Shown in pieces: positions 1,573-24,164 of a stretch of 64,000 bases of DNA. The first letter of the stretch is position 1, and each line of letters begins with the position of its first letter. A model generated the notes under the pieces. That model did not search any database. It was given only the letters and a program-made list of their open reading frames with translations, and was not told the DNA's origin. The stretch comes from Gordonia humi. GTDB lineage: Bacteria > Actinomycetota > Actinomycetes > Mycobacteriales > Mycobacteriaceae. Where the stretch lies: the NCBI RefSeq assembly GCF_014197435.1, contig NZ_JACIFP010000001.1, positions 868,001 through 932,000 on the forward strand. The letters run 5' to 3'. The position numbers were made by a program, and so were the translations under genes.

Positions 1573-2898
1573 GTGCCTCAGGATGCGAATCGCGGATCAG
1601 TCGTGGGTGGAGAACAGATCGCCGAACGGGTGCCGGGCGTACGGCGAGGCCCGCTCTCCGGGGTGAAAGTCGCCGACTTCTGCTGGATGGGCGTCGGTGC
1701 CGTCGCGACGCGAATGCTCGCGGACTTCGGTGCCGAGGTGATCCGCATCGAGGATCGGGATCGGCCGGATCTACCGCGGCGCCTGCCGCTATACAAGGGA
1801 GAAGTGCGCGCTTACGGCGACATCGATCCGAATCCGGACCCGAACAAGGGCGGACTCTTCAACAACTACAACCGCAACAAGCTGGGCATCACGTTGAACA
1901 TGCGGACGGAGAAGGGCCGTGAGATCGCCGAGCGGCTCATCGCCGACAGCGGGATCGTCACAGAGAACTTCGCCCCGGGCGTCCTGGAGAAGTGGGGCTT
2001 GACGCGAGAACGCATCGAGGAACTGCGCCCCGGTTCGATCCTCGCGCGAATGGCGGGGTTCGGACACGATGGGCCGCACCATCGGTTCCGCAGCTATGGG
2101 CCGGTGATCCAGGCGGTGTGCGGATTGTCGTTCAACAGCGGCCTGCCCGGTCGAGAACCGTCCGCCTGGGGAATGTCGTACATGGACAATCAGGCCGCCT
2201 ACTACAACGCGATCGCGCTGATGACTGCGATCTACCACCGCAAGCGCACGGGCGAGGGGATGTACCTCGACGTCTCCGCGGTGGAAGCCGGGATCGGACT
2301 GCTCGGCCCCGACCTGCTCGATACTCTGGTGAACGGTCGTCCGAGTAGACGCCCGGACTTCCCGCGCGGCAATCGCCTTGAATTCCCCGACGCGGCACCG
2401 CACGGCGTGTATCCGGCGTCGGGTGAGGATCAGTGGATCGCCGTCGCTGTCTTCGACGAGAAGGACTGGTCAGCGCTCGTGGAGGTCATGGGTCGCCCCG
2501 AGTGGGCGATCGACGACCGGTTCGCCACAATGCAGGCCCGACTGGAGAATGTCGACGCGCTCGACGCTCTCCTCGGCGAGTGGACGGTCGCGTACGACAA
2601 GCACACCCTCATGCATCTGCTTCAGAAGGCTGGAGTGACGGCCGGCGCCGTGCAGAACTCGCGGGACCTCGTCGAGACGGACCCGCAGATCGCGGCGCGC
2701 GGCACGTTCTTCGAACTCGACCACCCGGTGATCGGCCCGGCACTCTTCGAAGGCATACCGATGCGATTGTCCGGGTCGGAGCAGCACAACTGGCGATCGG
2801 CGCCCCTGATGGGTGAGGACAACGACCACGTGTTGAGCCGTGTTCTCGGGATGGACGCCGACGAGATCGGCCGTCTGGCCGCCGAAGGGATCATCTGA
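1573..2898 (+). CDS. CaiB/BaiF class III CoA-transferase, subunit A (operon I)
   Basis: 441-aa class III CoA-transferase, expected to move CoA between an acyl-CoA donor and a carboxylic acid in the cytosol. GTG start 6 nt after GAAAGG. The N-terminal Rossmann-like CoA-binding segment (about residues 29-60) carries the family pattern GVKVADFCWMGVG followed by LADFGAEVIRIE. In the conserved VDVS-type motif the position of the catalytic Asp of formyl-CoA transferase appears to be Glu238 (VSAVEAG). The gene overlaps the next CoA-transferase by 1 nt (TGATG), which implies coupled translation and probably a heteromeric enzyme like BbsEF. Its paralogue lies at 18456-19793. Donor and acceptor are unknown. 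Confidence 0.9.
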   Translation: MPQDANRGSVVGGEQIAERVPGVRRGPLSGVKVADFCWMGVGAVATRMLADFGAEVIRIEDRDRPDLPRRLPLYKGEVRAYGDIDPNPDPNKGGLFNNYNRNKLGITLNMRTEKGREIAERLIADSGIVTENFAPGVLEKWGLTRERIEELRPGSILARMAGFGHDGPHHRFRSYGPVIQAVCGLSFNSGLPGREPSAWGMSYMDNQAAYYNAIALMTAIYHRKRTGEGMYLDVSAVEAGIGLLGPDLLDTLVNGRPSRRPDFPRGNRLEFPDAAPHGVYPASGEDQWIAVAVFDEKDWSALVEVMGRPEWAIDDRFATMQARLENVDALDALLGEWTVAYDKHTLMHLLQKAGVTAGAVQNSRDLVETDPQIAARGTFFELDHPVIGPALFEGIPMRLSGSEQHNWRSAPLMGEDNDHVLSRVLGMDADEIGRLAAEGII

Positions 2899-4085
2899 TG
2901 CACAAGAGAATCGAGAACTCTCCGTTCAGCGACCTGATCGTCGTCGAACTGGCCGACACCCCCGCGGGCGAGCAGGTCGGCAAGCTGCTCGCCGACGCCG
3001 GTGCCACCGTAGTCAAGGTGGAGCCGCGTGCGGGAGTGAGCAGCCGACACATCGGGCCGTGGCGCGATGGCGTCGTGGGCCCGAACGAGTCCCTCTCGTT
3101 CTGGGCGTACAACACCAGCAAGCAGAGTGTGGTGATCGACGAACCCGATGCGTACAGCGGTCCTCTGGCGGACCTGCTCGACCGGGCCGACGTGGTGGTA
3201 ACGACGGACGGGCCCGCGCGGCTGGCCGAACGCGGTATCTCACCGGATGCTCTGCGACGTGGTCGCGACTCGTTGATCGTGGTGTCGGTGTCGCCGTTCG
3301 GGCTGACCGGCCCGTGGGCGGACTATCGCACGAGCGACCTGGTCGGGCTGGCGGTCGGCGGACCGCTGCACAGCTGCGGCTACGACGACCACACCATTCC
3401 GCCGATCCTGCCCGGTGGCAACCAGGCATTCCAGAACGCGGCGAGCTTCGCCGTACAGGGCCTGCTGCTGGCGTTGATCGAGCGCTTCGACGGCGGCGGC
3501 GGACAGGTGGTCGACGTGTCGATGCACGAGTCGAACGCGGTGAGCTGCGAACTCGCGAATCCGTACTGGTTCTATCCGAAGGTACTCGTCAAGCGGCAGA
3601 CGGCGCGCCATGCGCAGCCGACGCGTACGTCGCCGGAACTGTTCGAATGTGTCGACGGCTACGTCTACTTCGCGCTGATCCTCGGCGATCTCCACCAGTG
3701 GAAGGCGGTCGTCACCTGGATGGACGAGCACGGTCTCGCCGAAGACCTGACCGACGAGGCGTATACCGATCTCGCCCATCGCCAGAAGCGCTTCTCGCAC
3801 GTCCAAGAGGTGTTCGAGGCATTCTTCGCCCGACTCGATGCCCAGACTCTGTACCTGGAAGGGCAGGAACGCGGTGTTCCGATCGGCCCGTTGCGCGCCT
3901 TCGAAGAGCTGTCGACCGATGAACACCTGCAGGCTCGCGGCTTCTTCGTCGACGTGCCGCTCGCCGACGGAACCGCCGTCATGTTCCCGGGCTCACCGCT
4001 GGTGTCGTCCGGGTTCGCGCCGCGGCCGAGTCGGCCGCCGCGATTGGACGAACACGGGGATCTCGGCGTGGGACGGTCGCGATGA
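2898..4085 (+). CDS. CaiB/BaiF class III CoA-transferase, subunit B (operon I)
   Basis: 395-aa class III CoA-transferase and second partner of the pair. ATG overlaps the upstream stop. Family landmarks are VVELADTPAGEQVGKLLADAGA near the N terminus, SPFGLTGPWADYRTSDL in the middle and VDVSMHES, where Glu211 occupies the usual catalytic-Asp position. It overlaps the thiolase-like gene by 4 nt (ATGA). The two subunits differ strongly from each other but each matches its counterpart in operon II, so the pair duplicated as a unit. Most likely forms a hetero-oligomer with the upstream product; substrate not inferable. Confidence 0.9.
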   Translation: MHKRIENSPFSDLIVVELADTPAGEQVGKLLADAGATVVKVEPRAGVSSRHIGPWRDGVVGPNESLSFWAYNTSKQSVVIDEPDAYSGPLADLLDRADVVVTTDGPARLAERGISPDALRRGRDSLIVVSVSPFGLTGPWADYRTSDLVGLAVGGPLHSCGYDDHTIPPILPGGNQAFQNAASFAVQGLLLALIERFDGGGGQVVDVSMHESNAVSCELANPYWFYPKVLVKRQTARHAQPTRTSPELFECVDGYVYFALILGDLHQWKAVVTWMDEHGLAEDLTDEAYTDLAHRQKRFSHVQEVFEAFFARLDAQTLYLEGQERGVPIGPLRAFEELSTDEHLQARGFFVDVPLADGTAVMFPGSPLVSSGFAPRPSRPPRLDEHGDLGVGRSR

Positions 4086-5263
4086 CCGACACGTGGAAGC
4101 CGGACACGACGGCGATCGTCGGCATCGGCGCGACGGACTTCTCCAGGGAGTCCGGTCGGAGCGCCCTGACCCTCGCGGCGGAGGCGACGCTCGCCGCTCT
4201 GGCCGACGCCGGCCTCGAACCGAGCCACGTCGACGGTATCGTCCGCTGCGATATGGACGAGGTTCCGCCGGTGGCCCTCGGCGATGCGATCGGTGTCGCG
4301 AACCTCGAGTACTGGGGTGACGTCGGGCCCGGCGGCTCGGCGCCGTGCGCCATGATCATCCAGGCGATGGCCGCGATCACCGCAGGCTTGGCGACGACGG
4401 TCGTCGCGTTCCGGTCCATCAATGGTCGCTCGGGGCAGCGCTACGGCGCCGGCTACGCGCGCGACGTCCGCGTCGGCGGCCGCTCGGCGTTCGAGGACTA
4501 CTTCCTACCGTTCGGCATGCAGACGCCGGGCCAGTACTTCGCTACCGTCGCGCAGCGTCACATGATCGAGTACGGCACCGACGAGCAGACGCTGGGGCGA
4601 ATCGCGTTGGCGTGTCGGCGTCACGCCAACGCGAATCCGGCGGCCCAGATGCACGGGCGCACCATGACCATGGACGACTACGAGCTGTCTCGCATGCTCA
4701 CGACTCCGCTGCGCTTGTTCGACTTCTGCTTGGAGACCGACGGTGCGTGCGCTGTGGTTGTGACCTCCATCGAGCGGGCCCGCGACCTGCGGCAGACGCC
4801 GGCGCTCATCCACTCGGCAGCTCAGGCCGGCGGACACGACGCACAGCCGGGCCAGATGTTCCCGGCCCTGTTGCGCGAGGACATCACCACCTGGTCGTCG
4901 ACGGACGTCGCGACGATCCTCTACCGCCGCGGCGGGGTGCGACCCGCCGACGTCGACGTCGCTCAGATCTACGACTGCTTCACGATCACCACCCTCATCC
5001 AGATCGAGGACTACGGGTTCTGTGCAAAGGGCGAGGCCAAGGACTTCATCGGCGACGGAACCCTCCAAGTCGGCGGTGCGCTCCCGATCAACACATCCGG
5101 TGGGCATCTCTCCGAGGGCTATGTCCACGGGATGAACCACGTCGTCGAGAGCGTGCGTCAGGTCCGTGGGACGTCCACCAACCAGGTCGCCGACGCCGAG
5201 CTCAGTCTCGTGACGTCGGCACCGACCACCGGTGGCAGCGCCTTGCTGCTGGTCGCCGGATGA
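4082..5263 (+). CDS. Thiolase-superfamily protein of SCP-x/Ltp2 type, canonical Cys absent
   Basis: 393-aa thiolase-fold protein of the lipid-transfer/SCP-x group, expected to make or break a C-C bond alpha to a CoA thioester carbonyl. Where thiolases carry the nucleophilic Cys in a C-x-S-G context, residues about 80-92 read GPGGSAPCAM, so the standard motif is missing although a Cys is nearby. C-terminal landmarks are YDCFTI (Tyr297), NTSGGHLSEGY (Tyr347) and RQVRGTSTNQV. Loss of the Cys with retained tyrosines is the pattern described for the steroid side-chain aldolase Ltp2, which works with a DUF35 protein, and a DUF35 gene follows here. Retro-aldol cleavage is therefore the favoured inference; a thiolase role as in BbsB is the alternative. 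Confidence 0.85.
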   Translation: MTDTWKPDTTAIVGIGATDFSRESGRSALTLAAEATLAALADAGLEPSHVDGIVRCDMDEVPPVALGDAIGVANLEYWGDVGPGGSAPCAMIIQAMAAITAGLATTVVAFRSINGRSGQRYGAGYARDVRVGGRSAFEDYFLPFGMQTPGQYFATVAQRHMIEYGTDEQTLGRIALACRRHANANPAAQMHGRTMTMDDYELSRMLTTPLRLFDFCLETDGACAVVVTSIERARDLRQTPALIHSAAQAGGHDAQPGQMFPALLREDITTWSSTDVATILYRRGGVRPADVDVAQIYDCFTITTLIQIEDYGFCAKGEAKDFIGDGTLQVGGALPINTSGGHLSEGYVHGMNHVVESVRQVRGTSTNQVADAELSLVTSAPTTGGSALLLVAG

Positions 5264-5280
5264 CGCGGGAGGTGTATCCG

Positions 5281-5697
5281 ATGAAGAACGAGAATCGGGT
5301 TCTGCCCGTGACGACCGATCCCGACACGGCGCCCTTCTGGGCCGCCGCCCGCGAGGAGAGACTCGTGATCAAGTACTGCGAGGAGTGCGACCGCCCGATC
5401 CACCTTCCGCGGGCGTATTGTCCGGTCTGTCGCCGACGCAGTGACGTCTGGCGGGATGCTTCGGGCAGCGGCCGCGTGTACAGCTGGACGATCGTCGAGC
5501 ACCAGGTGCATCCCGGGTATCCGACGCCGTACACGTCTGTGCTCGTGGAACTCGCCGACCATCGGTCGGTGCGCCTGCTGGGTTCGCTCCCCGGGCGGGT
5601 CCCGCTCGTCGGCGGCGAACCCGTCCAGGTCTGGTTCGAGCACCTCGAGAATGTGACGATCCCGCAGTGGCGTCTGGTCGAAGCGGGCGGCGCATGA
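5281..5697 (+). CDS. DUF35 Zn-ribbon/OB-fold protein, partner of the thiolase-like protein
   Basis: 138-aa OB-fold protein with an N-terminal zinc ribbon (Cys33, Cys36, Cys47, Cys50) followed by the nucleic-acid-like OB domain (SWTIVEHQVHPGYP and downstream strands). In characterised systems (ChsH2 with Ltp2, BbsA with BbsB) such proteins bind the thiolase-fold subunit and help hold the CoA substrate. Start chosen at ATG 5281 because GGGAGG at 5267-5272 stands 8 nt upstream; an earlier ATG at 5260 overlaps the upstream stop but lacks a ribosome site. Overlaps the next gene by 4 nt. Confidence 0.88.
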   Translation: MKNENRVLPVTTDPDTAPFWAAAREERLVIKYCEECDRPIHLPRAYCPVCRRRSDVWRDASGSGRVYSWTIVEHQVHPGYPTPYTSVLVELADHRSVRLLGSLPGRVPLVGGEPVQVWFEHLENVTIPQWRLVEAGGA

Positions 5698-6563
5698 CGC
5701 GGATCGGAATCTCCGCCTACGATCTCCCGGTCCGCGACTTCGTCGCCCTCGCGCAGGCGGCGGACGAGGCGGGAGTGCACAGTCTGTGGTTGGGGGAGCA
5801 TGTGTTCAACCCAGGGCAGTACGCGAGCGCGCACCCGGGGGCCAACACCGCGCAGCATCATATCGGCCCAGTCGTCCATCCGACGACGCATCTGCTCGAC
5901 CCGACGGCGACACTCGCGGCCGCTGCGATGGTGACGACCCGGATCCAGCTCGGAACCGCGGTGCTCGTCCTTCCGTTGCGGCATCCGCTCCTGGTCGGCC
6001 GTGCGCTCGCCACGCTCGACGAGCTGGCGCCCGGACGGATCGTGCTGGGTGTCGGCGCCGGATGGCTCCGGGAGGAGTTCACCGCCCTCGACGTCGACTT
6101 CGCCGACCGCGGTCGACGGCTGAGGGAGAGCGTGTCGATCCTCCGGTCGTGTCTGGGTGGTGGATTCGTCGAACATCACGGCACGGTCTTCGACTTCGAT
6201 GCGCTGCAGATGGTCGAGAAGCCGGTCCACGTGCCGTTGATCGTGGGCGGCAACGGGCCGGTGGCGCTGCGGCGTGCCGCAACTCTGGGTGACGGTTGGT
6301 TCTCCTCCGGATCGCTGGACCTCGACGAGTCGGTGGCGTTGCGGGACTCCCTCGTCGAACTTCTCGCCGAGCGCGGTCGCAGCGAGGACGACTTCGAGAT
6401 CGTCATCCGACCCAAACATGCGGACGTGGATGTAGTGCGGGCGCATGCGGAAGCCGGATTGAGGCATGTCGTCGTCTGGGCCGACCAGGTGTGGGATGCC
6501 GAGGACCCGCGCAGTGTGCAGATCGAGAAGCTGCGGGAGTTCCTGGCCGAAGTCGAAGACTAA
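5694..6563 (+). CDS. LLM-class (luciferase-like) F420-type oxidoreductase
   Basis: 289-aa TIM-barrel protein of the luciferase-like monooxygenase superfamily, in the actinobacterial subgroup that commonly uses coenzyme F420. N-terminal ISAYDLPVRDFVALAQAADEAG, then WLGEHVF and an ATMVTTRIQLGTAV-type strand, and the GR-LDELAPGRIVLGVGAGW segment that shapes the cofactor pocket. ATG start overlaps the DUF35 stop (ATGA). Last gene of operon I; AT-rich sequence follows. Probably a hydride-transfer or oxygenation step on the same substrate; F420 use is inferred from the family, not seen. Confidence 0.85.
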   Translation: MTRIGISAYDLPVRDFVALAQAADEAGVHSLWLGEHVFNPGQYASAHPGANTAQHHIGPVVHPTTHLLDPTATLAAAAMVTTRIQLGTAVLVLPLRHPLLVGRALATLDELAPGRIVLGVGAGWLREEFTALDVDFADRGRRLRESVSILRSCLGGGFVEHHGTVFDFDALQMVEKPVHVPLIVGGNGPVALRRAATLGDGWFSSGSLDLDESVALRDSLVELLAERGRSEDDFEIVIRPKHADVDVVRAHAEAGLRHVVVWADQVWDAEDPRSVQIEKLREFLAEVED

Positions 6564-6576
6564 GCCGGACTCGAGA

Positions 6577-6651: not shown

Positions 6652-6720
6652 CTCATATGCGGGGTGTCACATGTCACATCGCGGATCGGTGGTATGGACT
6701 CGGACAACGAGGAGTTGTTG

Positions 6721-7737
6721 ATGAAGATGAATCTCTCGAAGCGGCTGTCGCTGGCGGCCGTGGCCCTCGCCACGACGGTAGGCCTGGCGGCCTGTGGATC
6801 CGACGAGCCCGCGGGCGAACTCGCGACCGGTGGCTGGGACGAGGTGGTCGCGGCCGCCAAGAACGAGGGCACCGTCACGATCTATTCGAGCCAGGGAGCA
6901 ACCCAAGTCGACGACCTGGCCGCGGGCTTCCAAGACAAGTACGGCGTCAAGGTCGAGGTCGTCCGCGACATCGACGCGAACCTGCTGCCGAAGATCGATG
7001 CGGAGCTTCGCACCGGTAAGCCGGCCGCGGATGTGCTCGTGCAGTCGACCGAGTCGGCCGTCAAGAAGTACTCCGAGGACGGCGTCCTCGCAGAGCCTGT
7101 CGCTCCGTCCCTCAAGGACATCGACGTGATGCGCGACGACAACTACTTCGACGTCGACGCCACGGTGATCACCTTCGCGTGGAACACCGACCAGTTCCAC
7201 GGGAAGCTGAACAACTACCAGGACCTGTTGAACAAAGATCTCAAGGGCAAGATCGGCGTCCCCGAGCCGACCGTCGCAGCCTTCGTCGACTTCTATCTCT
7301 ACCTCGAAGATCTCTACGGCGACGACTTCTCGGCCAAGCTGGCCGCGCAGGACCCGAAGATCTACCCGGGTGCACTGCCTGCGGCGCAGGCGCTCTCGTC
7401 GGGTGAGATCGCCGCTGCCGCCTATGTCGAACCGCAGGCCGACGAGAAGAAGGCCGGTGCACCGGTCGACTGGGGCTTCGAGAAGGAGCAATGGTCGGCG
7501 ATGTTCTACGGGTCCATGCTCAAGGGCTCGGCACACCCGAACGCCGCACAGTTGCTCACCGACTACATGATGAGCGCTGAGGGGCAGCAGCGGATCGCCC
7601 GCAAGGCCGCATCGGCCCGTCCGGACATTCCCGGGACGGTCGCCACGCTCGACACGGTTCACCGCATGGACACCACGAAGATCACTCCCGAGGTGATCGC
7701 CGACTACCAGGCCAAGTGGAACAAGCTGTTTCGCTGA
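6721..7737 (+). CDS. ABC importer substrate-binding lipoprotein (Fe(III)/organic-anion type)
   Basis: 338-aa extracellular solute-binding protein. ATG 6721 is chosen because GAGGAG (6709-6714) precedes it by 6 nt; the longer frame lacks a ribosome site. Lipoprotein signal: Lys/Arg-rich start, hydrophobic core, lipobox LAAC at about residues 20-23, so it is lipid-anchored outside the membrane. The mature part resembles the AfuA/FbpA-like family (GTVTIYSSQG, then LRTGKPAADVLVQST). Followed 51 nt later by its ATPase and a fused permease. Family members bind ferric iron, but relatives bind phosphonates or organic acids, and the catabolic setting favours an organic ligand. Confidence 0.88.
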   Translation: MKMNLSKRLSLAAVALATTVGLAACGSDEPAGELATGGWDEVVAAAKNEGTVTIYSSQGATQVDDLAAGFQDKYGVKVEVVRDIDANLLPKIDAELRTGKPAADVLVQSTESAVKKYSEDGVLAEPVAPSLKDIDVMRDDNYFDVDATVITFAWNTDQFHGKLNNYQDLLNKDLKGKIGVPEPTVAAFVDFYLYLEDLYGDDFSAKLAAQDPKIYPGALPAAQALSSGEIAAAAYVEPQADEKKAGAPVDWGFEKEQWSAMFYGSMLKGSAHPNAAQLLTDYMMSAEGQQRIARKAASARPDIPGTVATLDTVHRMDTTKITPEVIADYQAKWNKLFR

Positions 7738-7788: not shown

Positions 7789-8904
7789 ATGTCTAGTGTC
7801 ACCATCACCTCGCTCACGAAGCGCTTCGGCGGCTCGAAGAGTGCGCCGGTGATAGACGATCTGAAACTGGAGATCGCCGAAGGCGAGTTCCTCGTTCTGC
7901 TCGGCGCGAGCGGATGCGGTAAGACGACCACGCTGCGCTGCCTCGCCGGATTGGAGTCGCCGTCGGCGGGCACGATCACCTTCGGTGATCAAGTGATGTT
8001 CGACGGCGACCGCAAGGTCGAGGTCGCCGCCGAGAAGCGCAGTGTCGGCATGGTGTTCCAGTCGTATGCGTTGTGGCCGCATCTGAAAGTGCGAGAGAAC
8101 ATCGCTTACCCGCTCAAAGCCCGCAAGATCAAACGTGGACTCGACGAGGGCTGGGTCCAAGGGGTCGCCGAGATGGTCGACTGCAGCCACCTGCTCGATC
8201 GATACCCCAGCCAGCTGAGCGGCGGTCAGCAGCAACGCGTGGCGCTGGCACGCGGCATCGTCGCGCGGCCCGAACTCGTCCTCTTCGACGAGCCGCTCAG
8301 CAATCTCGACGCCAAGCTGCGCCTGCAGGTCCGTGCCGATCTCCACGCCCTGCACGGCCGGATCGGTTTCACTGCTGTGTTCGTCACGCACGACCAGGAC
8401 GAGGCACTCGCTCTCGCCGATCGCATCGCGATCATGCGCAACGGTCGCATCGAGCAGTGCGCGACCCCGTCGGAGATCTTCGAGCGACCCGGAACGGACT
8501 ATGTCGCCGAGTTCATGGGCATGTCGAACCGAATCGAACTCAAGCGCAGCGGTGCAGGGTGGGCCGATCGAGCCGGATCGGCCGCGCGGATCCCGATCGT
8601 GGGACATAACGGGGACCTCATCGTGCGGGCTCGACCCGACCAAGTGTTTCTGCTCGGTGTCGGTGAGTCAGCGGCACTGAGCGTCTTCGCTACGGTGACG
8701 GGCACGGTGTACGGCGGCCGGCACGTGGACGTCACGCTCGACGCGGACGGAGCTCGACTGCAGGCACGCGTCGAGGCGCACGGTCTGAACGTCGCAGCGG
8801 GCGACCGCGTAGAGGTCGGTGTCGACGTCGACGCGGCGCGCTACTTCGACGCGCAGTCCGAACAGGCCGTCGCATCGGTCGGCGCCCGCGAGGTCGTCGC
8901 ATGA
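7789..8904 (+). CDS. ABC importer ATP-binding protein (block I)
   Basis: 371-aa ATPase of a polyamine/Fe(III)-type importer, acting on the cytoplasmic face. Walker A GASGCGKTT from about residue 39, Q-loop VFQSYALWP, signature LSGGQQQR near 144, Walker B LVLFDEP near 162-170 and the H-loop VTHDQDEAL. A C-terminal TOBE-like domain follows (about 240-371). ATG start with GAAGGG 12 nt upstream. Overlaps the permease gene by 4 nt. Energises uptake of the ligand of the preceding lipoprotein. Confidence 0.92.
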   Translation: MSSVTITSLTKRFGGSKSAPVIDDLKLEIAEGEFLVLLGASGCGKTTTLRCLAGLESPSAGTITFGDQVMFDGDRKVEVAAEKRSVGMVFQSYALWPHLKVRENIAYPLKARKIKRGLDEGWVQGVAEMVDCSHLLDRYPSQLSGGQQQRVALARGIVARPELVLFDEPLSNLDAKLRLQVRADLHALHGRIGFTAVFVTHDQDEALALADRIAIMRNGRIEQCATPSEIFERPGTDYVAEFMGMSNRIELKRSGAGWADRAGSAARIPIVGHNGDLIVRARPDQVFLLGVGESAALSVFATVTGTVYGGRHVDVTLDADGARLQARVEAHGLNVAAGDRVEVGVDVDAARYFDAQSEQAVASVGAREVVA

Positions 8905-16052: not shown

Positions 16053-16054
16053 GA

Positions 16055-17197
16055 TCAGTTGACGCCCCAGAGCTTCTTGAACTGCTCCTTGAAGTCCTTG
16101 GGGCCGGGCCAGCCGTCCGTCAAGTCGGCGATGCTCTGAGCCTCCTCCTTCGAGTCGACGATGAAGAAGGCGGGGACCGCGGACGCGCGCTCGTTCTCGA
16201 CGCTCCACTCGCCGTTGGCGACGCGGGCCATCTGGTCCGTGAGCGTCCACATGTTGTTCTCCTGCGGAGCCGCGATCCACGCGGAGGTCTCACCGTTGAC
16301 GACCGACTGGATCTGCGGCTGCTGTGCCTGGACGCCGACGATCTTCACGTGCTCGAGGCCCGCGCTGTTGAGCGCCGACCGCAGACCCGGTTCGAAGTCA
16401 CCGAAAGCCAAGTACAGGTAGTTCACATCCGGGTTGGACTGCAGGTACGAGATGATCGTGTTGGTGGCACCGCCACTGCTCAGGACGTCGACCGAGATGT
16501 CGATCGGGGCGCTGGTGCAGGTGTCGCAGAGTTCGTCGAGCGTCTTCTTCACATCCGGCACGGCGTTCGACAGAGTGGGGAACTCGGGAACGTTGACGAC
16601 GCCGATGTTCGCGGACGCGCCGCTGTCCTCGATGACCCAGGAGGTGAGTGCGCGCGAGTACGTGTCGATCGCGGTGAGGTCGGCGCAGTCGGCGAATAGG
16701 TTGTTGGCTTCGCCTTCCGGGACATCACTGGCGTAGCAGCTGAAGTACGGGATCCCTGCGGCCTTGGCCGAGTCGAACGCGTTCTGGAACGTCGCGACGT
16801 CGCTGCCGGTCCCCGCGATGTAGTCGACCTTCAGGTCGACGGCCTGCTGGACTGCCGAACCGAAGTCGGTCGCCGGTGCGTTGATTCCGGTGTACTCCCA
16901 GCCGAGAGCCTCGACCGACTCCTTGACGAAGTCGCCGAGGATGGAGCAGGTCGGGTCGGCGCAGACGATGAACGCGACCTTCTTCTTCTCCGGCGTCTTG
17001 GTGAGGGGGGTGGTCTGGACGATCTCGGTGGGCTCTGTCGTGTACTGCGCGACGATGTCCTTGACCTCTTGTGAGACCTCGCCGCCGCCGGTGCTGGTCG
17101 TCCCGCTGTCGCCGGAACTGCACGAGGTCAGTGCGATGACTGCGGCGAACGTGCCGGCGGCGAGCATGCCGAGCCGCCGGTGCCGATTGAGTAGCAT
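16055..17197 (-). CDS. ABC importer substrate-binding lipoprotein (sugar-binding-like)
   Basis: 380-aa periplasmic-binding-protein-like lipoprotein. ATG preceded by GGAGGA. Signal with basic start and lipobox LTSC (about residues 23-26), then a Ser/Gly/Thr linker. The mature domain resembles the RbsB/LacI-type fold (KKVAFIVCADPTCSILGDF, GTGSDVATFQNAFDSAKAAGIPYF), with a Cys pair spaced like a disulfide. First gene of the importer operon. Large inverted repeats lie in its leader (17221-17257). Ligand unknown, presumably the block II growth substrate. Confidence 0.9.
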   Translation of the reverse strand: MLLNRHRRLGMLAAGTFAAVIALTSCSSGDSGTTSTGGGEVSQEVKDIVAQYTTEPTEIVQTTPLTKTPEKKKVAFIVCADPTCSILGDFVKESVEALGWEYTGINAPATDFGSAVQQAVDLKVDYIAGTGSDVATFQNAFDSAKAAGIPYFSCYASDVPEGEANNLFADCADLTAIDTYSRALTSWVIEDSGASANIGVVNVPEFPTLSNAVPDVKKTLDELCDTCTSAPIDISVDVLSSGGATNTIISYLQSNPDVNYLYLAFGDFEPGLRSALNSAGLEHVKIVGVQAQQPQIQSVVNGETSAWIAAPQENNMWTLTDQMARVANGEWSVENERASAVPAFFIVDSKEEAQSIADLTDGWPGPKDFKEQFKKLWGVN

Positions 17198-17416: not shown

Positions 17417-18238
17417 TCAGAGACGCCAATCGATGCGCTGTGATCCGCCGTTCGGGTCCAATGTCAGGTAGGCGTCGCCGACGTCGACGATGTGCTGGGT
17501 CATGAGTTTGCGCGCTTTTGCGGGACGTCCGTCGAGAATCGCCTGGGCGATGTCGGCGTGCGAGTGCGAGAGCATCTCACGTTCGGCGACGGGGTCCAAG
17601 GACTGGAGGACCTGCTCGACCATGATGTGGTCGACGGCCTGCGTCACCAGGGTGAGGGTGCGGTTGCCCGACAGGGTGGCGATGACCGAGTGGAAGTCGT
17701 TGAAGTCGTCGAATAGTTCTACCTCGACATGTGACTCGGTGTCGTAGTGCAGGAACGGCGTGATCATCTCGCGCTTGTGTCGGCTCGTCGGCAGGCGGGC
17801 CGCGCGTTCGGCGAGCATCGGCTCCAGGGCCGCCCAGGTGTCGAGGAGTTCAGCGTAGGTGGCGCCGCTGAGGTGGAAGTACAGCGACGTCGTCCGGGCG
17901 AGGTATCCGGCGTTCAGTGGTGCGACGAACGGTCCGCCGCCTGGCCCGCGCTTGATGTCGACGATGCCCTGCATCTCCAGGAGTCGGAGTGCCTCGCGCA
18001 GTGATTCGCGGCTGACCTCGTACTGGTCGAGCATCTCCTGTTCGGTCGGCAGTTTGTCGCCGACGATCAGTCGTCGGCCGAGGATGTCATCGACGATGCG
18101 GGACGCGGTGAGCTCGGCGGCCTTCGGTGGTCGCCGGCGCGGATTCTGCTGGTCGGCGGCCGCGAACCCGCGTGGCGCATACACGACCGGCAGGCCGTGG
18201 CCCGCGTCGTCGTTGCTGGCTGGTGCGTGCGAGCTCAT
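17417..18238 (-). CDS. GntR-family regulator with FCD domain
   Basis: 273-aa transcription factor. ATG with AAGGA 6 nt upstream. Disordered start (1-38), winged helix-turn-helix at about 40-112 (LPTEQEMLDQYEVSRESLREALRLLEMQG), then an all-helical FCD ligand/metal domain with the His-containing segment DFNDFHSVIATLSGN. FadR-type proteins usually sense an acyl-CoA or organic acid. It is divergent from CoA-transferase operon II and upstream of the importer operon, so it likely controls both. It is clearly paralogous to the protein at 31900-32703 (shared RGPGGGPFV and YFHLSGATY). Confidence 0.92.
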   Translation of the reverse strand: MSSHAPASNDDAGHGLPVVYAPRGFAAADQQNPRRRPPKAAELTASRIVDDILGRRLIVGDKLPTEQEMLDQYEVSRESLREALRLLEMQGIVDIKRGPGGGPFVAPLNAGYLARTTSLYFHLSGATYAELLDTWAALEPMLAERAARLPTSRHKREMITPFLHYDTESHVEVELFDDFNDFHSVIATLSGNRTLTLVTQAVDHIMVEQVLQSLDPVAEREMLSHSHADIAQAILDGRPAKARKLMTQHIVDVGDAYLTLDPNGGSQRIDWRL

Positions 18239-18455: not shown

Positions 18456-19793
18456 GTGACCCAGAACACGTATGCCAACAACACCGCCGAGTCGGTGATG
18501 AGCGGCGTCGGCGACGAATCCCGTCGTCCGCGGCCGCGCACCGGGCCGCTGGCAGGTGTCAAGATCGCCGACTTCTGCTGGATGGGCGTCGGAGCTGTGG
18601 CGACTCGCCTACTCGCGGATTTCGGTGCGGACGTCATCAAGATCGAGAACCGCAAGCGGCTCGACATGCCGCGCCGACTCCCCATCTACAAGGGCGACGT
18701 CCGTTCGTACGGCAACGAGGATCCGAATCCCGATCCGAACAAGGGCGGGCTTTTCAACAACTACTCGCGCAACAAGCTCGGCATCACCGTCGACATGGCG
18801 GACCCGCGTGGCCGTGAGCTCGTCGTCGAGCTCATCGAGCACTGCGGGATCGTCACCGAGAACTTCGCGCCAGGCGTGATGGAGAAGTGGAATCTCACTT
18901 ATCCGGATTTGCGGGAGATCCGCGACGATGTGATCTTCGCGCGGATGAGCGGCTTCGGTCACTCCGGTCCGCAGGCCCACTACCGGAGTTACGGCCCCGT
19001 GGTGCAAGCGGTCAGCGGGCTCTCGTTCAACAGCGGTCTGCCCGGGCGCGAGCCGTCGGGCTGGGGTCTGTCGTACATGGACAACCAGGCCGCGTACTAC
19101 AACTCCGCCGGCCTGCTCCTGGCGATCTACCAGCGGATGCTCACCGGGCAGGGCACCGAGGTGGACGTCTCGGCTGTCGAGGCCGGCATCGGTCTGCTCG
19201 GCTCGGATCTGCTCGACACCCTGGTCAACGACCGTCCGGGTCGGCGCGCCGACTACCCCCGCGGCAATCGTCTGGAGTACCCGGATGCTGCGCCTCACGG
19301 GGTCTACCCGGCGGCGGGCGACGATCAATGGGTCGCGATCGCCGTGTTCTCCGACGACGAGTGGCAGGCACTGCGCACCGCGATGGACGACCCCGCGTGG
19401 ACCGCCGAGGAGCGATTCGCCACGATCCCGGCGCGTATCGCGAACCAGGACGACCTGGACAAGCGCATCGGGGAATGGAGCCGCGGTCGAGACAAACACG
19501 ATGTCATGACCCTCCTGCAGAACGCAGGCGTCACCGCGGCCGCGGTCCAGAACGCCATGGACCTGGTCGAGCACGATCCGCAGATCGCGGAACGCGGCAC
19601 GTTCTTCGAACTCGATCACCCGGTGATCGGACCGGCTCTGTTCGAGGGCTTCCCCGGACGGTTCGGCACCTCGCGGCCGGACAACTGGCGCTCGGCGCCG
19701 CTGCTGGGCGAAGACAATGCGTACGTCTTCGGGGAACTGCTCGGTCGAGACGCCGACACGCTCGCGCAGCTGTCGGCAGAAGGAGTCATCTGA
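18456..19793 (+). CDS. CaiB/BaiF class III CoA-transferase, subunit A (operon II)
   Basis: 445-aa class III CoA-transferase and close paralogue of the product of 1573-2898 (same ADFCWMGVGAVATR, NPDPNKGGLFNNY and SYMDNQAAYYN segments). Glu242 sits at the usual catalytic-Asp position (VSAVEAG). Start chosen at GTG 18456: the frame is open further upstream, but the promoter -10 box lies at 18443-18448, so earlier starts would not be in the mRNA. The choice gives an N terminus about as long as the paralogue and implies a leaderless transcript. ATG 18498 is the alternative. Overlaps the next gene by 1 nt. Confidence 0.88.
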   Translation: MTQNTYANNTAESVMSGVGDESRRPRPRTGPLAGVKIADFCWMGVGAVATRLLADFGADVIKIENRKRLDMPRRLPIYKGDVRSYGNEDPNPDPNKGGLFNNYSRNKLGITVDMADPRGRELVVELIEHCGIVTENFAPGVMEKWNLTYPDLREIRDDVIFARMSGFGHSGPQAHYRSYGPVVQAVSGLSFNSGLPGREPSGWGLSYMDNQAAYYNSAGLLLAIYQRMLTGQGTEVDVSAVEAGIGLLGSDLLDTLVNDRPGRRADYPRGNRLEYPDAAPHGVYPAAGDDQWVAIAVFSDDEWQALRTAMDDPAWTAEERFATIPARIANQDDLDKRIGEWSRGRDKHDVMTLLQNAGVTAAAVQNAMDLVEHDPQIAERGTFFELDHPVIGPALFEGFPGRFGTSRPDNWRSAPLLGEDNAYVFGELLGRDADTLAQLSAEGVI

Positions 19794-20983
19794 TGTCGAA
19801 AGCGCGAGTCCAAGCTGGTGGCAGTCCTGTCGCCTCGATCACCGTCGTCGAACTCGCACAGAGTCCCGCCGGCGAGCAGACGGGCAAGTTCATCGGTGAC
19901 CTCGGCGCAGACGTGATCAAGGTGGAGCCCCCGGAGGGCGTCGCCAGTCGTCACGTCGGACCGTACGTGAAGGGCCACGAGGGCGACCCCGACCACAGTC
20001 TCGAGTTCTGGGCGTACAACTCGAGCAAGACGAGCCATGTCGTCGACGCCGCAACCGAATGCGGTCGACGAGAGTTCGCTGAGCTCCTGGCCCGCGCCGA
20101 AGTACTCATCGTCGAGGACGTGCGGTGGCTGGCCCGGCTCGGATACGAGCTGGACGCCTTGCAACAGGAGCGACCCGACCTGATCATCCTGTCAGTGACT
20201 CCCTTCGGCCTGACAGGGCCGTGGAAGGACTACCGGACGAGCGACCTCATCGCGCTCGCCGCGGGCGGAATGCTCAACAGCTGCGGCTACGACGATCACT
20301 CGATTCCGCCGATCCGCCCAGGCGGAAACCAGGGCTTCCAGCTCGGCGCGAGCTTCGCCTGGTGTGCGCTGCTCCTGGCGTTGATCGAGCGGAAGAACAC
20401 CGGTCGTGGCCAGCTCGTCGACGTCTCTCTGCACGAATCCAACGCGGTCAGCGGTGAACTGGCCAACCCGTACTACTTCTATCCGAAGGCCGTTGTGCAG
20501 AGGCAGACCAACCGCCACGCACAGCCCGAGCCGACGCAGCCGGCGACTTTCGAATGCGGCGACGGCAATTACGTCTACTTCGCGTTGATCCTGGCCGAGT
20601 CGAAGGCGTGGTCGACCCTGCTCACCTGGATGGACGATCTCGGGATGGCTGCGGATCTGCTCGACCCGGCCTACCAGGACATCGCCTACCGTCAGCGCCA
20701 GTTCGGTCACGTCCAGGAACTGCTCGAAGTCTTCTTCCTGATCCAAGACGCCGAGACGGTCTACCACGAGGGACAGCGTCGCGGTCTGCCGATCGGTCGG
20801 TTGAACGCTTTCGAGGATCTGCCGAACGACGAGCATCTGCAGGCCCGCGGCTTCTTCGTCGACATGCCGACGATCGACGGCGACTCCACCAAGTACCCCG
20901 GCCTGCCTTACCGATTCACCGCATTCGAGCCGGTTCCGGGACGGCCGCCGCGACTAGACGAGCGAGAGGCCGAGAATGCCTGA
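19793..20983 (+). CDS. CaiB/BaiF class III CoA-transferase, subunit B (operon II)
   Basis: 396-aa second CoA-transferase. ATG overlaps the upstream stop exactly as in operon I. Shares VVELAQSPAGEQTGKFIGDL, TPFGLTGPWKDYRTSDL and SCGYDDHSIPPI with the operon I partner; Glu215 occupies the catalytic-Asp position (VDVSLHES). It overlaps the thiolase-like gene by 8 nt. Predicted to form the same kind of heteromeric transferase as in operon I, acting on a related but different acid. Confidence 0.9.
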   Translation: MSKARVQAGGSPVASITVVELAQSPAGEQTGKFIGDLGADVIKVEPPEGVASRHVGPYVKGHEGDPDHSLEFWAYNSSKTSHVVDAATECGRREFAELLARAEVLIVEDVRWLARLGYELDALQQERPDLIILSVTPFGLTGPWKDYRTSDLIALAAGGMLNSCGYDDHSIPPIRPGGNQGFQLGASFAWCALLLALIERKNTGRGQLVDVSLHESNAVSGELANPYYFYPKAVVQRQTNRHAQPEPTQPATFECGDGNYVYFALILAESKAWSTLLTWMDDLGMAADLLDPAYQDIAYRQRQFGHVQELLEVFFLIQDAETVYHEGQRRGLPIGRLNAFEDLPNDEHLQARGFFVDMPTIDGDSTKYPGLPYRFTAFEPVPGRPPRLDEREAENA

Positions 20984-22169
20984 TCAGACGTGGACCCCTG
21001 GAGCCTGTTCGATCGTCGGTATCGGTGAGACCGACTTCTCCAAGGCGTCGGGACGGACACCGCTGACGCTCGCCGCGCAGGCCGCACGCGCCGCGCTCGC
21101 GGACGCCGGCATCGCCCCGCGTGCAGTGGACGGCGTCGTTCGCTGCGATATGGATCTGGTCTCCGCCCCGGCGCTGGCCGACTCGCTCGGCGCGGACGAT
21201 CTCACATACTGGGGTGAGGCCGGTCCCGGCGGCTCGGGTCCGGCGGCGATGGTCGGCCAGGCCGTCGCGGCGATCAACTCGGGGCTGGCAACGACCGTCG
21301 TCGTCTTCCGTTCGCTCAACGGTCGGTCGGGCAACCGCTACGGCCTGGTGGGCGAGCACGGCGCCGTCGGCGGCGACAACAACTACGAGGAGTTCTTCCT
21401 GCCGTTCGGCATGCAGACCCCCGGCCAGTTCTTCGCCGTCGTCGCCCGTCGATATGCGCACGAACACGGTCTGTCGATCGACGAGCTGAGCCACGGTCTC
21501 GGCTCCATCGCTATGGCGGGTCGGGCGCATGCCAACAACAACCCGGCCGCGCAGTTCCACCAGCGGACGATGAGTCGCGAAGACTACCTCGCGTCACGGA
21601 TGCTGTCTTCGCCGTTGCGACTGTTCGATTACTGCCTGGAGACCGACGGCGCCGCCGCGGTCGTCGTGACCAGCACGCAGCGGGCACGCGACCTCGCGGG
21701 CGTCCACGTCCCGGTTCTGTCGGTCGCGCAGGGAACCGGTCGCGGCGTTCAACCCGGTCAGATGTTCCCCGCCCTGCTGCGGAAGTCGATCACCACGTGG
21801 CCGTCCGCGGCCACCGCCCCGACCGTGTTCGGGCGGGCCGGCGTCACCGCGGGCGATGTGGACGTCGCGCAGATCTACGACTGCTTCACGATCACCGCAC
21901 TGATCCAGTTGGAGGACTACGGGTTCATGGCACCCGGCCGGGCGGCGTATGTGACGCCCGAGGACCTGTCGGTCGGAGGGCGACTCCCATTCAACACGAG
22001 CGGCGGCCATCTGTCGGAGGGCTACATCCACGGTATGAACCACGTGGTGGAAGGCGTCCGACAGGTCCGTGGCACCTCGACGAACCAGGTCGACGGCGCC
22101 GAGATCAGTTTTGTCAGCTCGGCGCCGCCACCTGGGGCGAGCGCCATGATCCTGGGAGTAGACCGATGA
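20976..22169 (+). CDS. Thiolase-superfamily protein, Cys-less (Ltp2-like), operon II
   Basis: 397-aa paralogue of the product of 4082-5263. At the nucleophile position it reads GPGGSGPAAM, with no Cys at all, which argues against ordinary thiolysis. YDCFTI (Tyr301) and EGYIHG (Tyr350) are retained, together with the RQVRGTSTNQV tail. It overlaps the first DUF35 gene by 4 nt. An aldolase role with the DUF35 partner, as in Ltp2-ChsH2, is the best reading. The different residues around the missing Cys compared with operon I suggest that neither copy depends on it. Confidence 0.86.
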   Translation: MPDQTWTPGACSIVGIGETDFSKASGRTPLTLAAQAARAALADAGIAPRAVDGVVRCDMDLVSAPALADSLGADDLTYWGEAGPGGSGPAAMVGQAVAAINSGLATTVVVFRSLNGRSGNRYGLVGEHGAVGGDNNYEEFFLPFGMQTPGQFFAVVARRYAHEHGLSIDELSHGLGSIAMAGRAHANNNPAAQFHQRTMSREDYLASRMLSSPLRLFDYCLETDGAAAVVVTSTQRARDLAGVHVPVLSVAQGTGRGVQPGQMFPALLRKSITTWPSAATAPTVFGRAGVTAGDVDVAQIYDCFTITALIQLEDYGFMAPGRAAYVTPEDLSVGGRLPFNTSGGHLSEGYIHGMNHVVEGVRQVRGTSTNQVDGAEISFVSSAPPPGASAMILGVDR

Positions 22170-22597
22170 CCGACGCGCAGCCCTCACCGGTACTGCCGGT
22201 GGTCGACGACGTCGACACGGGCGAGTTCTTCGCGGCCGCGGCGCGGGGCGAGATCGCCGTCCGCGTCTGCAGTGCGTGCCGTGCGGACGTGCACCTTCCC
22301 CGAGAGAACTGCCCGCAGTGCGGTGCGTTCTCCCGCGAGTGGCGGGTAGTGCCGCCGCTGGGCGCGCTCTACAGCTGGACCGTCGTCGAGCACCAGGTGC
22401 ATCCCGCGACACCCGTGCCATACACCGTGGTGCTCGTCGAAGTCGACGGCACCGACGGTGTCCGCCTCGTCGGTCGTATCGACGGCCGCGCCGAACTAGA
22501 GATCGGTCAGCGTATGGAGGCCTGGTTCGAGCAGGTCGACGACGTCACGCTTCCTCAGTGGCGGCCGATCAGGACAGACGAGGAGAGCACCGCATGA
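22166..22597 (+). CDS. DUF35 Zn-ribbon/OB-fold protein, first of two
   Basis: 143-aa protein with a zinc ribbon (Cys35, Cys38, Cys49, Cys52) and OB fold (SWTVVEHQVHP). Clear paralogue of the operon I DUF35 protein. Overlaps the Cys-less thiolase gene upstream and the second DUF35 gene downstream by 4 nt each. By position it partners the Cys-less thiolase-like protein at 20976-22169. Confidence 0.88.
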   Translation: MTDAQPSPVLPVVDDVDTGEFFAAAARGEIAVRVCSACRADVHLPRENCPQCGAFSREWRVVPPLGALYSWTVVEHQVHPATPVPYTVVLVEVDGTDGVRLVGRIDGRAELEIGQRMEAWFEQVDDVTLPQWRPIRTDEESTA

Positions 22598-23019
22598 TTC
22601 CCGCAACGAGATGGGTTGATCCGACACTCGTCGTCGATCCTTCGGATTCCGCACCGCAGCTGGCCGGCGCCCGATGCGTGGAATGCGCCACCACGACGTT
22701 CCCGTTTCAGGACGGATGCCCGAGGTGCGGCGGCTCGACGATGGAACGCGTCGCGCTGCCGACCGAGGGCACTCTCTGGTCGTACACCGTCCAGTACTTT
22801 CCGCCGAAGCCACCGTTCCGGACCGTCGAGCCGTTCGAGCCCTATGGCCTGGGGTACATCGACCTCGGCGACGTATGCGTCGAGTCCCGGCTCACCGTCA
22901 ACGATCCCGCTGCGCTGACCCTCGGCATGCCGATGAGGCTGGTGACCATCACGGCATTCCTCGACGGGGGAGTGCCGGTCCAGACCTTCGCCTTCGCACC
23001 CCAGGAGAACCTCGTATGA
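22594..23019 (+). CDS. DUF35 Zn-ribbon/OB-fold protein, second of two
   Basis: 141-aa DUF35 protein with Cys28, Cys31, Cys42 and Cys45 as the zinc ribbon and an OB domain with SYTVQYFPPKPPF. It is only distantly similar to the preceding DUF35 protein and has no equivalent in operon I. It overlaps the Cys-containing thiolase gene by 4 nt, so the natural reading is one DUF35 per thiolase-fold enzyme: this one for the true thiolase downstream. Confidence 0.86.
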   Translation: MIPATRWVDPTLVVDPSDSAPQLAGARCVECATTTFPFQDGCPRCGGSTMERVALPTEGTLWSYTVQYFPPKPPFRTVEPFEPYGLGYIDLGDVCVESRLTVNDPAALTLGMPMRLVTITAFLDGGVPVQTFAFAPQENLV

Positions 23020-24164
23020 GCAGCGACGTCGCCATCGTCGGCATCGGCATTCACAAGTTCGGTCGCACCGAGGGAGTCAGCGGACGGGCTCAGGGCGCCT
23101 ACGCCGCCCGCCGGGCACTCGCCGACGCCGGTGTGCAGTGGTCGGACATCCAATTCGCGTACGGCGGCAGTTACGCCGCGGGCGACGCCGACTCCCTCGT
23201 CTCCGACCTCGGCCTGACCGGTGCGCCGTTCATCAACGTCCATAACGGTTGCGGCACAGGCGGATCGGCTCTGATCTCGGCGCGTAGTGCCCTCCTGTCC
23301 GGGCAGTACGACTTGGGCATGGTCGTCGGATTCGACAAGCATCCGAAGGGCGCCTTCGCGACGAAGCCGTCGAGTCTGGGCATCGGGGAGTGGTATGGCG
23401 AGACCGGCATGATGGTGACCACTCAGTTCTTCGCGCAGAAGATCGTCCGCTACATGGACCAGTACGACATCAGCGAACAGTCGCTCGCCGCAGTCGCTGA
23501 GAAATCGTTCTCGCTCGGTGCGCAGAACCCGAACGCCTGGCGCCGCAAGCCGCTGTCGCGGCAGGAGATCCTCGACGCGCCGATGGTGAATCATCCGCTC
23601 ACCCAGTACATGTTCTGCTCGCCGGGCGAAGGCGGCATCGCATTGGTGCTGGCTCGCGGCGAGGTGGCGCACAAATACACTGCGAACCCGATCTACCTGC
23701 GGGCAGCCGAGTTCCGTTCGCGGCGGTTCGGCTCCTTCGAGGTGTTCTCGCCGTGGACGACTCCGGAGACGCTCTCCGGACCGACACGTGACGCTTCGGC
23801 GGCCGCATTCGCATCCGCCGGGATCGGGCCGGAGGACGTCGACGTCGCGCAGATTCAGGACACCGAGTCGGGTGCTGAGATCATGCACATGGCCGAGACC
23901 GGGCTGTGCGCCGACGGCGATCAGGAGAAGCTCGTCCTCGACGGTGAGACCCGCCCGGACGGCCGACTGCCGATCAACACCGACGGTGGTGTGATCGCCA
24001 ATGGCGAACCGATCGGCGCGACGGGGCTCCGTCAGGTTTACGAGATCGCCCTTCAGCTCCGCGGCGACGCCGGCGCGCGCCAGGTCCCGGGGAGGCCGAA
24101 GACCGGCTTCACACATGTATACGGCGCACCGGGCATCAGTGCGTGCACGGTGCTGAGCCGCTGA
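23016..24164 (+). CDS. Thiolase-superfamily protein with candidate nucleophilic Cys
   Basis: 382-aa SCP-x-like thiolase. Cys79 in NGCGTGGSAL is in the nucleophile position, unlike in the two other thiolase-fold proteins here. The C-terminal motif NTDGGVIANGEPIGATG has Glu where classical thiolases have the His of GHPxG, as is common in this subfamily. ATG overlaps the DUF35 stop. Likely performs thiolytic release of acetyl- or propionyl-CoA after the first C-C cleavage. Last of the strictly overlapping genes; a small hairpin (CAGAGC, 7-nt loop, GCTCTG, 24165-24183) follows. Confidence 0.86.
   Translation: MSSDVAIVGIGIHKFGRTEGVSGRAQGAYAARRALADAGVQWSDIQFAYGGSYAAGDADSLVSDLGLTGAPFINVHNGCGTGGSALISARSALLSGQYDLGMVVGFDKHPKGAFATKPSSLGIGEWYGETGMMVTTQFFAQKIVRYMDQYDISEQSLAAVAEKSFSLGAQNPNAWRRKPLSRQEILDAPMVNHPLTQYMFCSPGEGGIALVLARGEVAHKYTANPIYLRAAEFRSRRFGSFEVFSPWTTPETLSGPTRDASAAAFASAGIGPEDVDVAQIQDTESGAEIMHMAETGLCADGDQEKLVLDGETRPDGRLPINTDGGVIANGEPIGATGLRQVYEIALQLRGDAGARQVPGRPKTGFTHVYGAPGISACTVLSR

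Follow-up and report, generated by a model that had tools for sequence, protein, structure and literature searches.

What does a four-gene block that joins two CaiB-type proteins to a thiolase-fold protein and a DUF35 protein do for Gordonia humi, and why is it present twice? Both copies lie in the 64,000-nucleotide stretch analyzed here (the window; C1:868001-932000 of a three-contig genome of 5.09 Mb). A first-pass annotation of the window had described two paralogous CaiB-CaiB-thiolase-DUF35 cassettes, duplicated as a unit. Our results demonstrate that the module is real, conserved, and duplicated. We propose, with a probability of about 0.6 for the reading as a whole, that each cassette is a two-enzyme module, predicted to consist of a heteromeric class III coenzyme A (CoA)-transferase and a DUF35-dependent retro-aldolase, and that the two cassettes are old paralogues within one catabolic island. 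The gene order CaiB1-CaiB2-thiolase-fold-DUF35 is found on the + strand in both cassette A (1573-5697) and cassette B (18456-22597), as follows.

1573..2898 (start 1573 or later), + strand: cassette A CaiB1, class III CoA-transferase subunit with D205, like chain B of BbsEF (PF02515, 332.5 bits; 9fn0_B, 254.5 bits)
2898..4085, + strand: cassette A CaiB2, class III CoA-transferase subunit without the aspartate, like chain A of BbsEF (PF02515, 195 bits; 9fn0_A, 145.4 bits)
4082..5263, + strand: cassette A thiolase-fold protein, predicted retro-aldolase (Y297-D-C299-F and Y347, without nucleophilic Cys; 6ok1, 352 bits; Foldseek; residues)
5260..5697, + strand: cassette A DUF35 partner, zinc ribbon plus OB fold, stand-alone, 145 amino acids (PF12172, PF01796)
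18456..19793 (start 18456 or 18498), + strand: cassette B CaiB1 (68% identical to A; PF02515)
19793..20983, + strand: cassette B CaiB2 (60% identical to A; PF02515)
20976..22169, + strand: cassette B thiolase-fold protein, predicted retro-aldolase (63% identical to A; same YDCF/Tyr signature)
22166..22597, + strand: cassette B DUF35 partner, stand-alone, 143 amino acids (48% identical to A; PF01796)

Duplication as a unit is confirmed by the positions, the gene order, and the subunit-by-subunit identities. Between A and B, 288 of 423 residues are identical in CaiB1, 229 of 381 in CaiB2, 247 of 391 in the thiolase-like protein, and 60 of 125 in DUF35, and the cassettes share 69.7% identity at the DNA level in an alignment of 3.68 kb. 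CaiB1 and CaiB2 of cassette A are only 23% alike, and it is thus the corresponding subunits of the two cassettes that pair. The first-pass annotation had also given both cassettes the same stop/start overlaps. This holds for three of the four junctions (CaiB1/CaiB2, TGATG; thiolase/DUF35 and DUF35/next gene, ATGA) and fails for CaiB2/thiolase, where the overlap is 4 nucleotides in A and 8 in B. In the tree sections listed, A and B fall inside one five-row Nocardioidaceae set in the CaiB1 tree (support 97/91) and inside one six-row set of the Nocardioidaceae group in the thiolase tree (100/99). The CaiB2 tree, with A on a long branch within a 14-row set, leaves the A/B grouping undecided. The top database matches are from Aeromicrobium and Nocardioides. 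This pattern fits a duplication of the block in or before the family Nocardioidaceae, followed by long divergence.

One of the cassettes may simply be redundant or decaying, in a system that needs only one. A single cassette is found in the fetched stretch at most of the other loci (described below), and the branches of cassette A are long in the trees of both CaiB1 and CaiB2 (0.73 in each). We nevertheless regard redundancy as unlikely: all eight reading frames are intact and retain the conserved residues that we checked, and Nocardioides sp. Root190 also has an A-type thiolase, DUF35, and importer together (54-75% identity).

The thiolase-fold protein provides the clearest indication of the chemistry. 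In a sequence search of the PDB, the best solved relative of the cassette A protein was TcLtp2 (6ok1; 352 bits), and BbsB scored 88.5 bits. The NCBIfam lipid-transfer protein model PRK07855 matched A and B at 456 and 387 bits, both under its cut-off of 469, and the BbsB model matched them at 103 and 76.5 bits against a cut-off of 750. The predicted structure of the cassette A protein (mean predicted local distance difference test, 84.3; predicted template modeling [TM] score, 0.88; residues 117-136 poor) was compared by Foldseek, in which the Ltp2-ChsH2(DUF35) aldolase ranked 1-2 (TM score, 0.91/0.94; 46% identity to the Ltp2 entry) and the Sal-Shy aldolase ranked 4 (0.84/0.84). By query length, the TM score was 0.91 for Ltp2-ChsH2 versus 0.81-0.83 for BbsB-type entries.

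The residues point in the same direction. Both cassette enzymes keep the YDCF motif and a second Tyr and are without the nucleophilic Cys. Among 42 non-gap rows of a 43-row alignment, the YDxF Tyr (Y297) is found in 42, Cys299 in 36, and the second Tyr (Y347) in 38; the alignment includes six rows of other thiolases of the same genome (two of them identical), to which the variants partly belong. Its nucleophile loop has no Cys in columns 82-86 and one Cys at column 81. In a separate alignment of 30 rows, Tyr297, Asp298, Phe300, and Tyr347 do not vary, and at least 90% of the rows have Cys299. The DUF35 partners have CxxC...CxxC in 36 of 36 rows. As described in one source, the residues used are Tyr294 of YDHF and Tyr344 in TcLtp2 and Tyr302 and Cys304 of YDCY in CtSal; in CtSal, Gly occupies the position of the thiolase nucleophile. 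Both enzymes have a DUF35 partner (PMC12329534). The cassette YDCF plus second Tyr thus reads as a combination of the TcLtp2 and CtSal signatures, which suggests that the cassette enzyme carries out retro-aldol cleavage, not thiolysis.

This likeness raises the possibility that the cassettes supply additional steroid aldolases of the Ltp2 type that act on a steroid acid, with a CoA-transferase standing in for a CoA ligase. The genome has an Ltp2-like protein of its own, with the motif YDHF and about 45-46% identity to the cassette A enzyme, whose gene follows ChsH2-like and weakly MaoC-like (ChsH1-like) genes; with such a row, the organism probably has sterol side-chain genes. This row, at C1 about 1.875-1.878 Mb (L057), lies outside the window. 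Acyl-CoA dehydrogenases (ACADs) with IpdE2/PimC-type matches, below cut-off, are also consistent with a steroid substrate. The cassette motif is YDCF, however, not YDHF, its DUF35 is stand-alone, no MaoC hydratase was seen among the scanned cassette neighbors, and no CaiB gene is present in the 4-kb stretch around the organism's own Ltp2-like gene. We consider a steroid side-chain role distinctly unlikely.

For the two-enzyme module that we favor, the other half is the CaiB pair. In the PDB search, which covered the A copies, CaiB1 matched chain B of 9fn0 (BbsEF) at 254.5 bits versus 70.4 bits for chain A, and CaiB2 matched chain A at 145.4 bits versus 66.5 bits for chain B. Other matches of CaiB1 were YfdW (167.8 bits) and the racemase 1x74 (59 bits), and formyl-CoA transferase is the best NCBIfam model for both CaiB1 proteins (219 and 190 bits, below cut-off). 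D205 of CaiB1 aligns with an Asp of 9fn0 chain B in a column that we take to be the catalytic aspartate of class III CoA-transferases, and Asp is found in 45 of 45 aligned rows. One of our two search motifs covers D205; at position 207, however, 16 of the 45 rows depart from that motif, so they were not selected by it. In CaiB2, all 42 rows have Tyr, Phe, Ser, Ala, or Gln at the aligned column, never Asp, and no conserved Asp was found near it among these rows. This suggests that CaiB1-CaiB2 is an active-inactive heteromer.

Fused CaiB-CaiB proteins also occur in this genome (781-823 amino acids; L053, C1 4290001-4300000, and L052, 412001-430000). Three of them have Asp in one half only, in a rough alignment with hand-set halves that included unrelated frames. 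The one at 4.29 Mb has DUF35-thiolase pairs on its flanks and resembles a fused cousin of the cassette, and a Rhodococcus DMU1 plasmid has a similar CaiB-CaiB frame of 857 amino acids adjoining a thiolase.

The match of CaiB1 and CaiB2 to BbsEF, chain by chain, is also what benzylsuccinate-type β-oxidation would predict. In such a pathway, the CaiB pair would activate an aryl- or alkyl-succinate, SDRs (short-chain dehydrogenases/reductases) and ACADs would oxidize it, and the cassette thiolase/DUF35 would act thiolytically on the 3-oxoacyl-CoA, with succinyl-CoA released as the donor. The gene types resemble those of bbs as described in PMC10818641. A second DUF35-thiolase pair (the C pair), directly after cassette B, has a Cys at the nucleophile site and weak BbsA/BbsB matches.

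22594..23019, + strand: second DUF35 (C pair), remote BbsA-type match (PF01796; NF053627, 42.5 bits against a cut-off of 250)
23016..24164, + strand: second thiolase (C pair), with Cys79 at the nucleophile site and QDTE/GEPIG replacing HDCF/GHPxG

In the C pair thiolase and its 16 relatives, Cys79, Gln281, and Glu331 are each found in 17 of 17 rows, and Gln281 and Glu331 stand where the aligned SCP2 thiolase has His; these substitutions speak against its use in such a pathway. The cassette thiolases themselves are without the nucleophilic Cys and fall far short of the BbsB cut-off. A pyruvate formate-lyase-like glycyl radical enzyme (PF02901) has no match in the whole genome, and 3 of 14 control genomes were positive. 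The first-pass annotation had seen parallels to both Bbs and Ltp2-ChsH2. Both are present, but they divide between the halves: the CoA-transferase half is BbsEF-like, and the thiolase/DUF35 half is Ltp2/Sal-like and not BbsAB-like, which makes it unlikely that the cassette enzyme carries out a thiolytic step of the Bbs type. We consider benzylsuccinate-type β-oxidation as a whole quite improbable. Just as improbable are CaiB proteins acting as acyl-CoA epimerases or CoA-ester shuttles beside an aldolase that works on synthetase-made esters, because, for all that the class III fold includes racemases, that an acyl-CoA synthetase lies in the cluster, and that there is no known donor, CaiB1 of A is far nearer to the transferases BbsEF and YfdW than to racemases and the formyl-CoA transferase model is the best for both CaiB1 proteins.

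The two-enzyme module lies among genes of an island with the following features.

607..1389, + strand: SDR oxidoreductase SDR0, tandem near-duplicate of the left-edge gene (Pfam adh_short)
5694..6563, + strand: F420-type luciferase-like oxidoreductase (TIGR03619, 211 bits against a cut-off of 166.9)
6694..7737 (start uncertain; scanned from 6724), + strand: ATP-binding cassette (ABC) substrate-binding protein, cassette A importer (PF13531/PF01547/PF13343)
7789..8904, + strand: ABC ATPase, cassette A importer (UgpC/PhnT2-type models, below cut-offs)
8901..10631, + strand: ABC permease of the fused type, cassette A importer (position and sequence; a 75% identical relative in L014)
10679..11473, + strand: SDR oxidoreductase SDR2
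11731-13225: transposase DDE_Tnp_1_4, broken frame, between the cassettes
13441..17197, - strand: ribose-type ABC importer RbsC-RbsA-RbsB, adjoining cassette B (PF13407 for RbsB; RbsC and RbsA by position and sequence)
17417..18238, - strand: GntR-type regulator
24228..25535, + strand: ACAD, like the ACAD11 domain (LvaC-like half; 4hr3, 238.7 bits; ACAD11, 235.1 bits)
25532..26617, + strand: APH-fold kinase, like the ACAD11 kinase domain (LvaA-like half; 9o56, 259 bits; ACAD11 8v3v, 149.6 bits)
26614..26907, + strand: protein of 97 amino acids (no Pfam match at 0.01; no NCBIfam match at 1e-10)
26936..28444, + strand: acyl-CoA synthetase
28441..29511, + strand: ACAD, IpdE2/PimD-type subunit (NF050027, 151 bits, below the cut-off of 450)
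29562..31055, + strand: aldehyde dehydrogenase (PF00171)
31040..31843, + strand: SDR oxidoreductase
31900..32703, - strand: second GntR/FCD regulator

The first-pass annotation had assigned each cassette its own importer, and importers do lie near each (about 6694-10631 and 13441-17197); the ribose-type importer and the GntR regulator are divergent and upstream of cassette B. The island continues to the left of the window (L051, C1 863787-867760) with SnoaL-like, cytochrome P450, double-bond reductase, and PimC-type ACAD genes (the last a model match below cut-off), which run up to the duplicated SDR at the edge of the window. The top matches of the P450, among the 60 of 117 matches listed, are P450cam/CYP101 entries. 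SDR0 and its copy, which straddles the left edge of the window (C1 867787-868571), share 90.7% DNA identity over 785 bp, far above the likeness of cassettes A and B.

The kinase and ACAD genes after the C pair read as a split ACAD11. The kinase motif letters HND, K, DN, and DWDM are found in 21 of 21 rows. Published work describes conversion of 4-hydroxyacyl-CoAs to 2-enoyl-CoAs by ACAD10/11 via a phosphorylated intermediate (PMC12440821) and a similar route from 4-hydroxyvaleryl-CoA by LvaA with LvaB and LvaC (PMC6692424). With a split kinase/ACAD pair like ACAD10/11 and Lva, the island can probably remove a γ-hydroxyl and also break a β-hydroxyacyl bond. The gene for the 97-amino-acid protein is followed by an acyl-CoA synthetase gene in 17 of 18 called cases and preceded by the kinase gene in 8.

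Farther right in the window, a PPDK_N/PEP-utilizer kinase, a DUF7065-DUF7064 protein, and a Y_phosphatase3 protein are encoded in a row (33817-38278). A separate cluster (50652-58632) encodes a glyoxalase-fold protein, a hydrolase, a cupin, SDRs, a thiamine pyrophosphate enzyme, a ferredoxin-type reductase, and a VanA-type Rieske oxygenase.

How widely is the cassette conserved? One scan of species genomes with strict motifs, which gives a lower bound, found 42 loci in Actinomycetota, Alphaproteobacteria, metagenome-assembled genomes labeled Acidobacteriota, Planctomycetota, and Hydrogenophilaceae, and, at 40% identity only, Dehalococcoidia. Context was counted over 43 loci (L028 dropped and two plasmid loci added), with identity thresholds of our own choosing and several loci cut by contig ends. 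CaiB1 was found at 42 of these loci and CaiB1 followed by CaiB2 at 40; thiolase and DUF35 were found anywhere at 31, and all four cassette genes were contiguous at 22. Relatives of the neighboring genes recur: GntR at 31 loci, the 97-amino-acid protein at 22, P450 or Rieske oxygenases at 21, the kinase and the synthetase at 20 each, the C pair thiolase and the ACAD11-type ACAD at 16 each, RbsA at 7, and the A-type importer at 2. In an even draw at a CaiB1 E value of 1e-150 or lower, matches were found in 0 of 200 other genomes of the same family and in 2 of 395 others of the phylum. CaiB1 is also present on four Rhodococcus plasmids, at 66-67%; two of them, both typed mobilizable, have the cluster together with P450, ferredoxin, a mycofactocin-coupled SDR (confirmed by model in one of the two), and an "ester cyclase." The mycofactocin-coupled SDR of the R. 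opacus plasmid cluster shares 49% identity with an SDR in the window (38356-39183; C1:906356-907183). This rare, patchy, and partly plasmid-borne distribution suggests an accessory catabolic island that was probably transferred.

From the homologies, the lost and kept residues, and the synteny, all read from sequence, we infer a reaction, an order of steps, and a class of substrate; the resulting mechanism is moderately supported. An acid or glycoside would first be taken up and then undergo P450 or Rieske hydroxylation and SDR oxidation. CaiB1-CaiB2 (or the synthetase) would load CoA, the transferase moving it from a donor acyl-CoA to the carboxylic acid, with CaiB1 as the putative catalytic subunit and CaiB2 as a structural or substrate-binding partner. 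Desaturation and hydration may precede cleavage, or a β-hydroxyacyl-CoA may be cleaved directly. The thiolase-like/DUF35 enzyme would split the β-hydroxyacyl-CoA into a ketone or aldehyde and a shorter acyl-CoA, with Y297 as the candidate base and C299 or Y347 as the candidate proton donor. The released acyl-CoA could be the CoA donor for the next turnover, and later steps would be kinase/ACAD dehydroxylation and then ordinary β-oxidation. The two acids served by A and B are probably successive or related; most likely they are alicyclic or β-branched (terpenoid-like) and blocked in ordinary β-oxidation; substrates that need such a step would have a tertiary or β-branched β-carbon.

Several observations weigh against this scheme. 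Because the cluster includes an acyl-CoA synthetase, activation may begin with an enzyme other than the CoA-transferase, and the C pair thiolase implies that thiolysis may also be possible in the pathway. Thiolase and DUF35 were not detected directly downstream of 18 of the 40 CaiB pairs (L044 misses the DUF35 rule only), and in L014, L016, L026, L029, and L050 a kinase follows CaiB1-CaiB2 instead; the transferase and the aldolase thus need not always act in sequence. Finally, no P450 or Rieske relative lies in the stretch fetched for 22 of the 43 loci; a start by an oxygenase is thus not universal.

Which acid might this be? In the published literature we found no substrate assignment for the cassette or description of it. 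The first-pass annotation could not put a name to the catabolic system, and no name came from the family models or from the papers that we found; our searches returned no close homologue already placed in a known pathway. Alicyclic or terpenoid acids, or abscisic acid, are candidate substrates that would fit the cassette chemistry. Dehydrovomifoliol and rhodococcal acid are intermediates of bacterial abscisic acid breakdown, with the mechanism and enzymes described as open by the authors (PMC9599779, PMC7996341). According to the abscisic acid authors, the branch at C3 may hinder β-oxidation, other actinobacteria remove a C2 unit from β-methylcinnamic acid, and a Baeyer-Villiger step may yield rhodococcal acid (PMC9599779, PMC7996341, PMC12349427, PMC12509608). 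Dehydrovomifoliol and rhodococcal acid would match the needed chemistry closely, a fit that is chemical only. The cassette is absent from both plasmids of the abscisic acid degrader Novosphingobium sp. P6W (best CaiB E value, 2.7e-46; best thiolase E value, 5.2e-15), which is limited evidence against this substrate; two Rhodococcus plasmids match at 1e-200 or better in the same search. The 42 loci found with the strict search motifs include neither Novosphingobium sp. P6W nor Rhodococcus sp. P1Y, which also counts against this substrate. We consider it rather improbable that the cassettes act in bacterial abscisic acid breakdown, with two cassettes for two cleavages. If they do, a gene would be supplied for a reaction of the (1-hydroxycyclohexan-1-yl)acetyl-CoA lyase type, an enzyme for which we know of no gene.

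We would class the cassette as a new pairing of two kinds of enzyme that are already known, in which a Bbs-type paired CoA-transferase and an Ltp2/Sal-type DUF35 aldolase are joined in one conserved block outside steroid and toluene clusters. If the proposed mechanism is true, the block is a portable means of getting past β-branched or ring-attached side chains that stop β-oxidation, found also on Rhodococcus plasmids typed mobilizable, and it points to candidate genes for steps in bacterial degradation of which the metabolites, but not the enzymes, are known. It also suggests that many "acetyl-CoA acetyltransferase" names in the cassette thiolase clade are wrong.

Comparison with known systems shows where the likeness ends. 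ACAD11 is matched by the neighboring kinase and ACAD genes at 24228-26617, which differ from it in being split, as in lva; the 97-amino-acid protein next to them goes with the synthetase gene. The cassette shares with the Ltp2-ChsH2(DUF35) steroid aldolase (6ok1) a thiolase fold without the nucleophile Cys, the YDxF Tyr, the second Tyr, and an adjoining DUF35 gene, but it has YDCF in place of YDHF, a DUF35 without a MaoC half, and a CoA-transferase pair upstream. With the Sal-Shy(DUF35) bile acid aldolase (9myr) it shares the YDC motif and an aldolase with DUF35. Sal has YDCY and Gln at the second-Tyr site, however, whereas the cassette has YDCF and Tyr347, and Shy is a fused DUF35 with a Cys3His1 zinc site (PMC12329534), whereas the cassette DUF35 stands alone with four Cys. 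Like BbsEF (PDB 9fn0), the cassette encodes a pair of different class III subunits in adjacent genes, matched one to one, with the aspartate in one (CaiB1) and absent from the other (CaiB2); unlike BbsEF, to which its similarity is modest (254 and 145 bits), its CaiB genes adjoin an Ltp2-type, not a BbsB-type, thiolase-fold gene. The order of events that we propose has a counterpart in SmtAB succinyl-CoA:malate CoA-transferase and malyl-CoA lyase, where paired CaiB subunits are followed by retro-aldol cleavage of the CoA ester, with a lyase from a family unrelated to the cassette aldolase.

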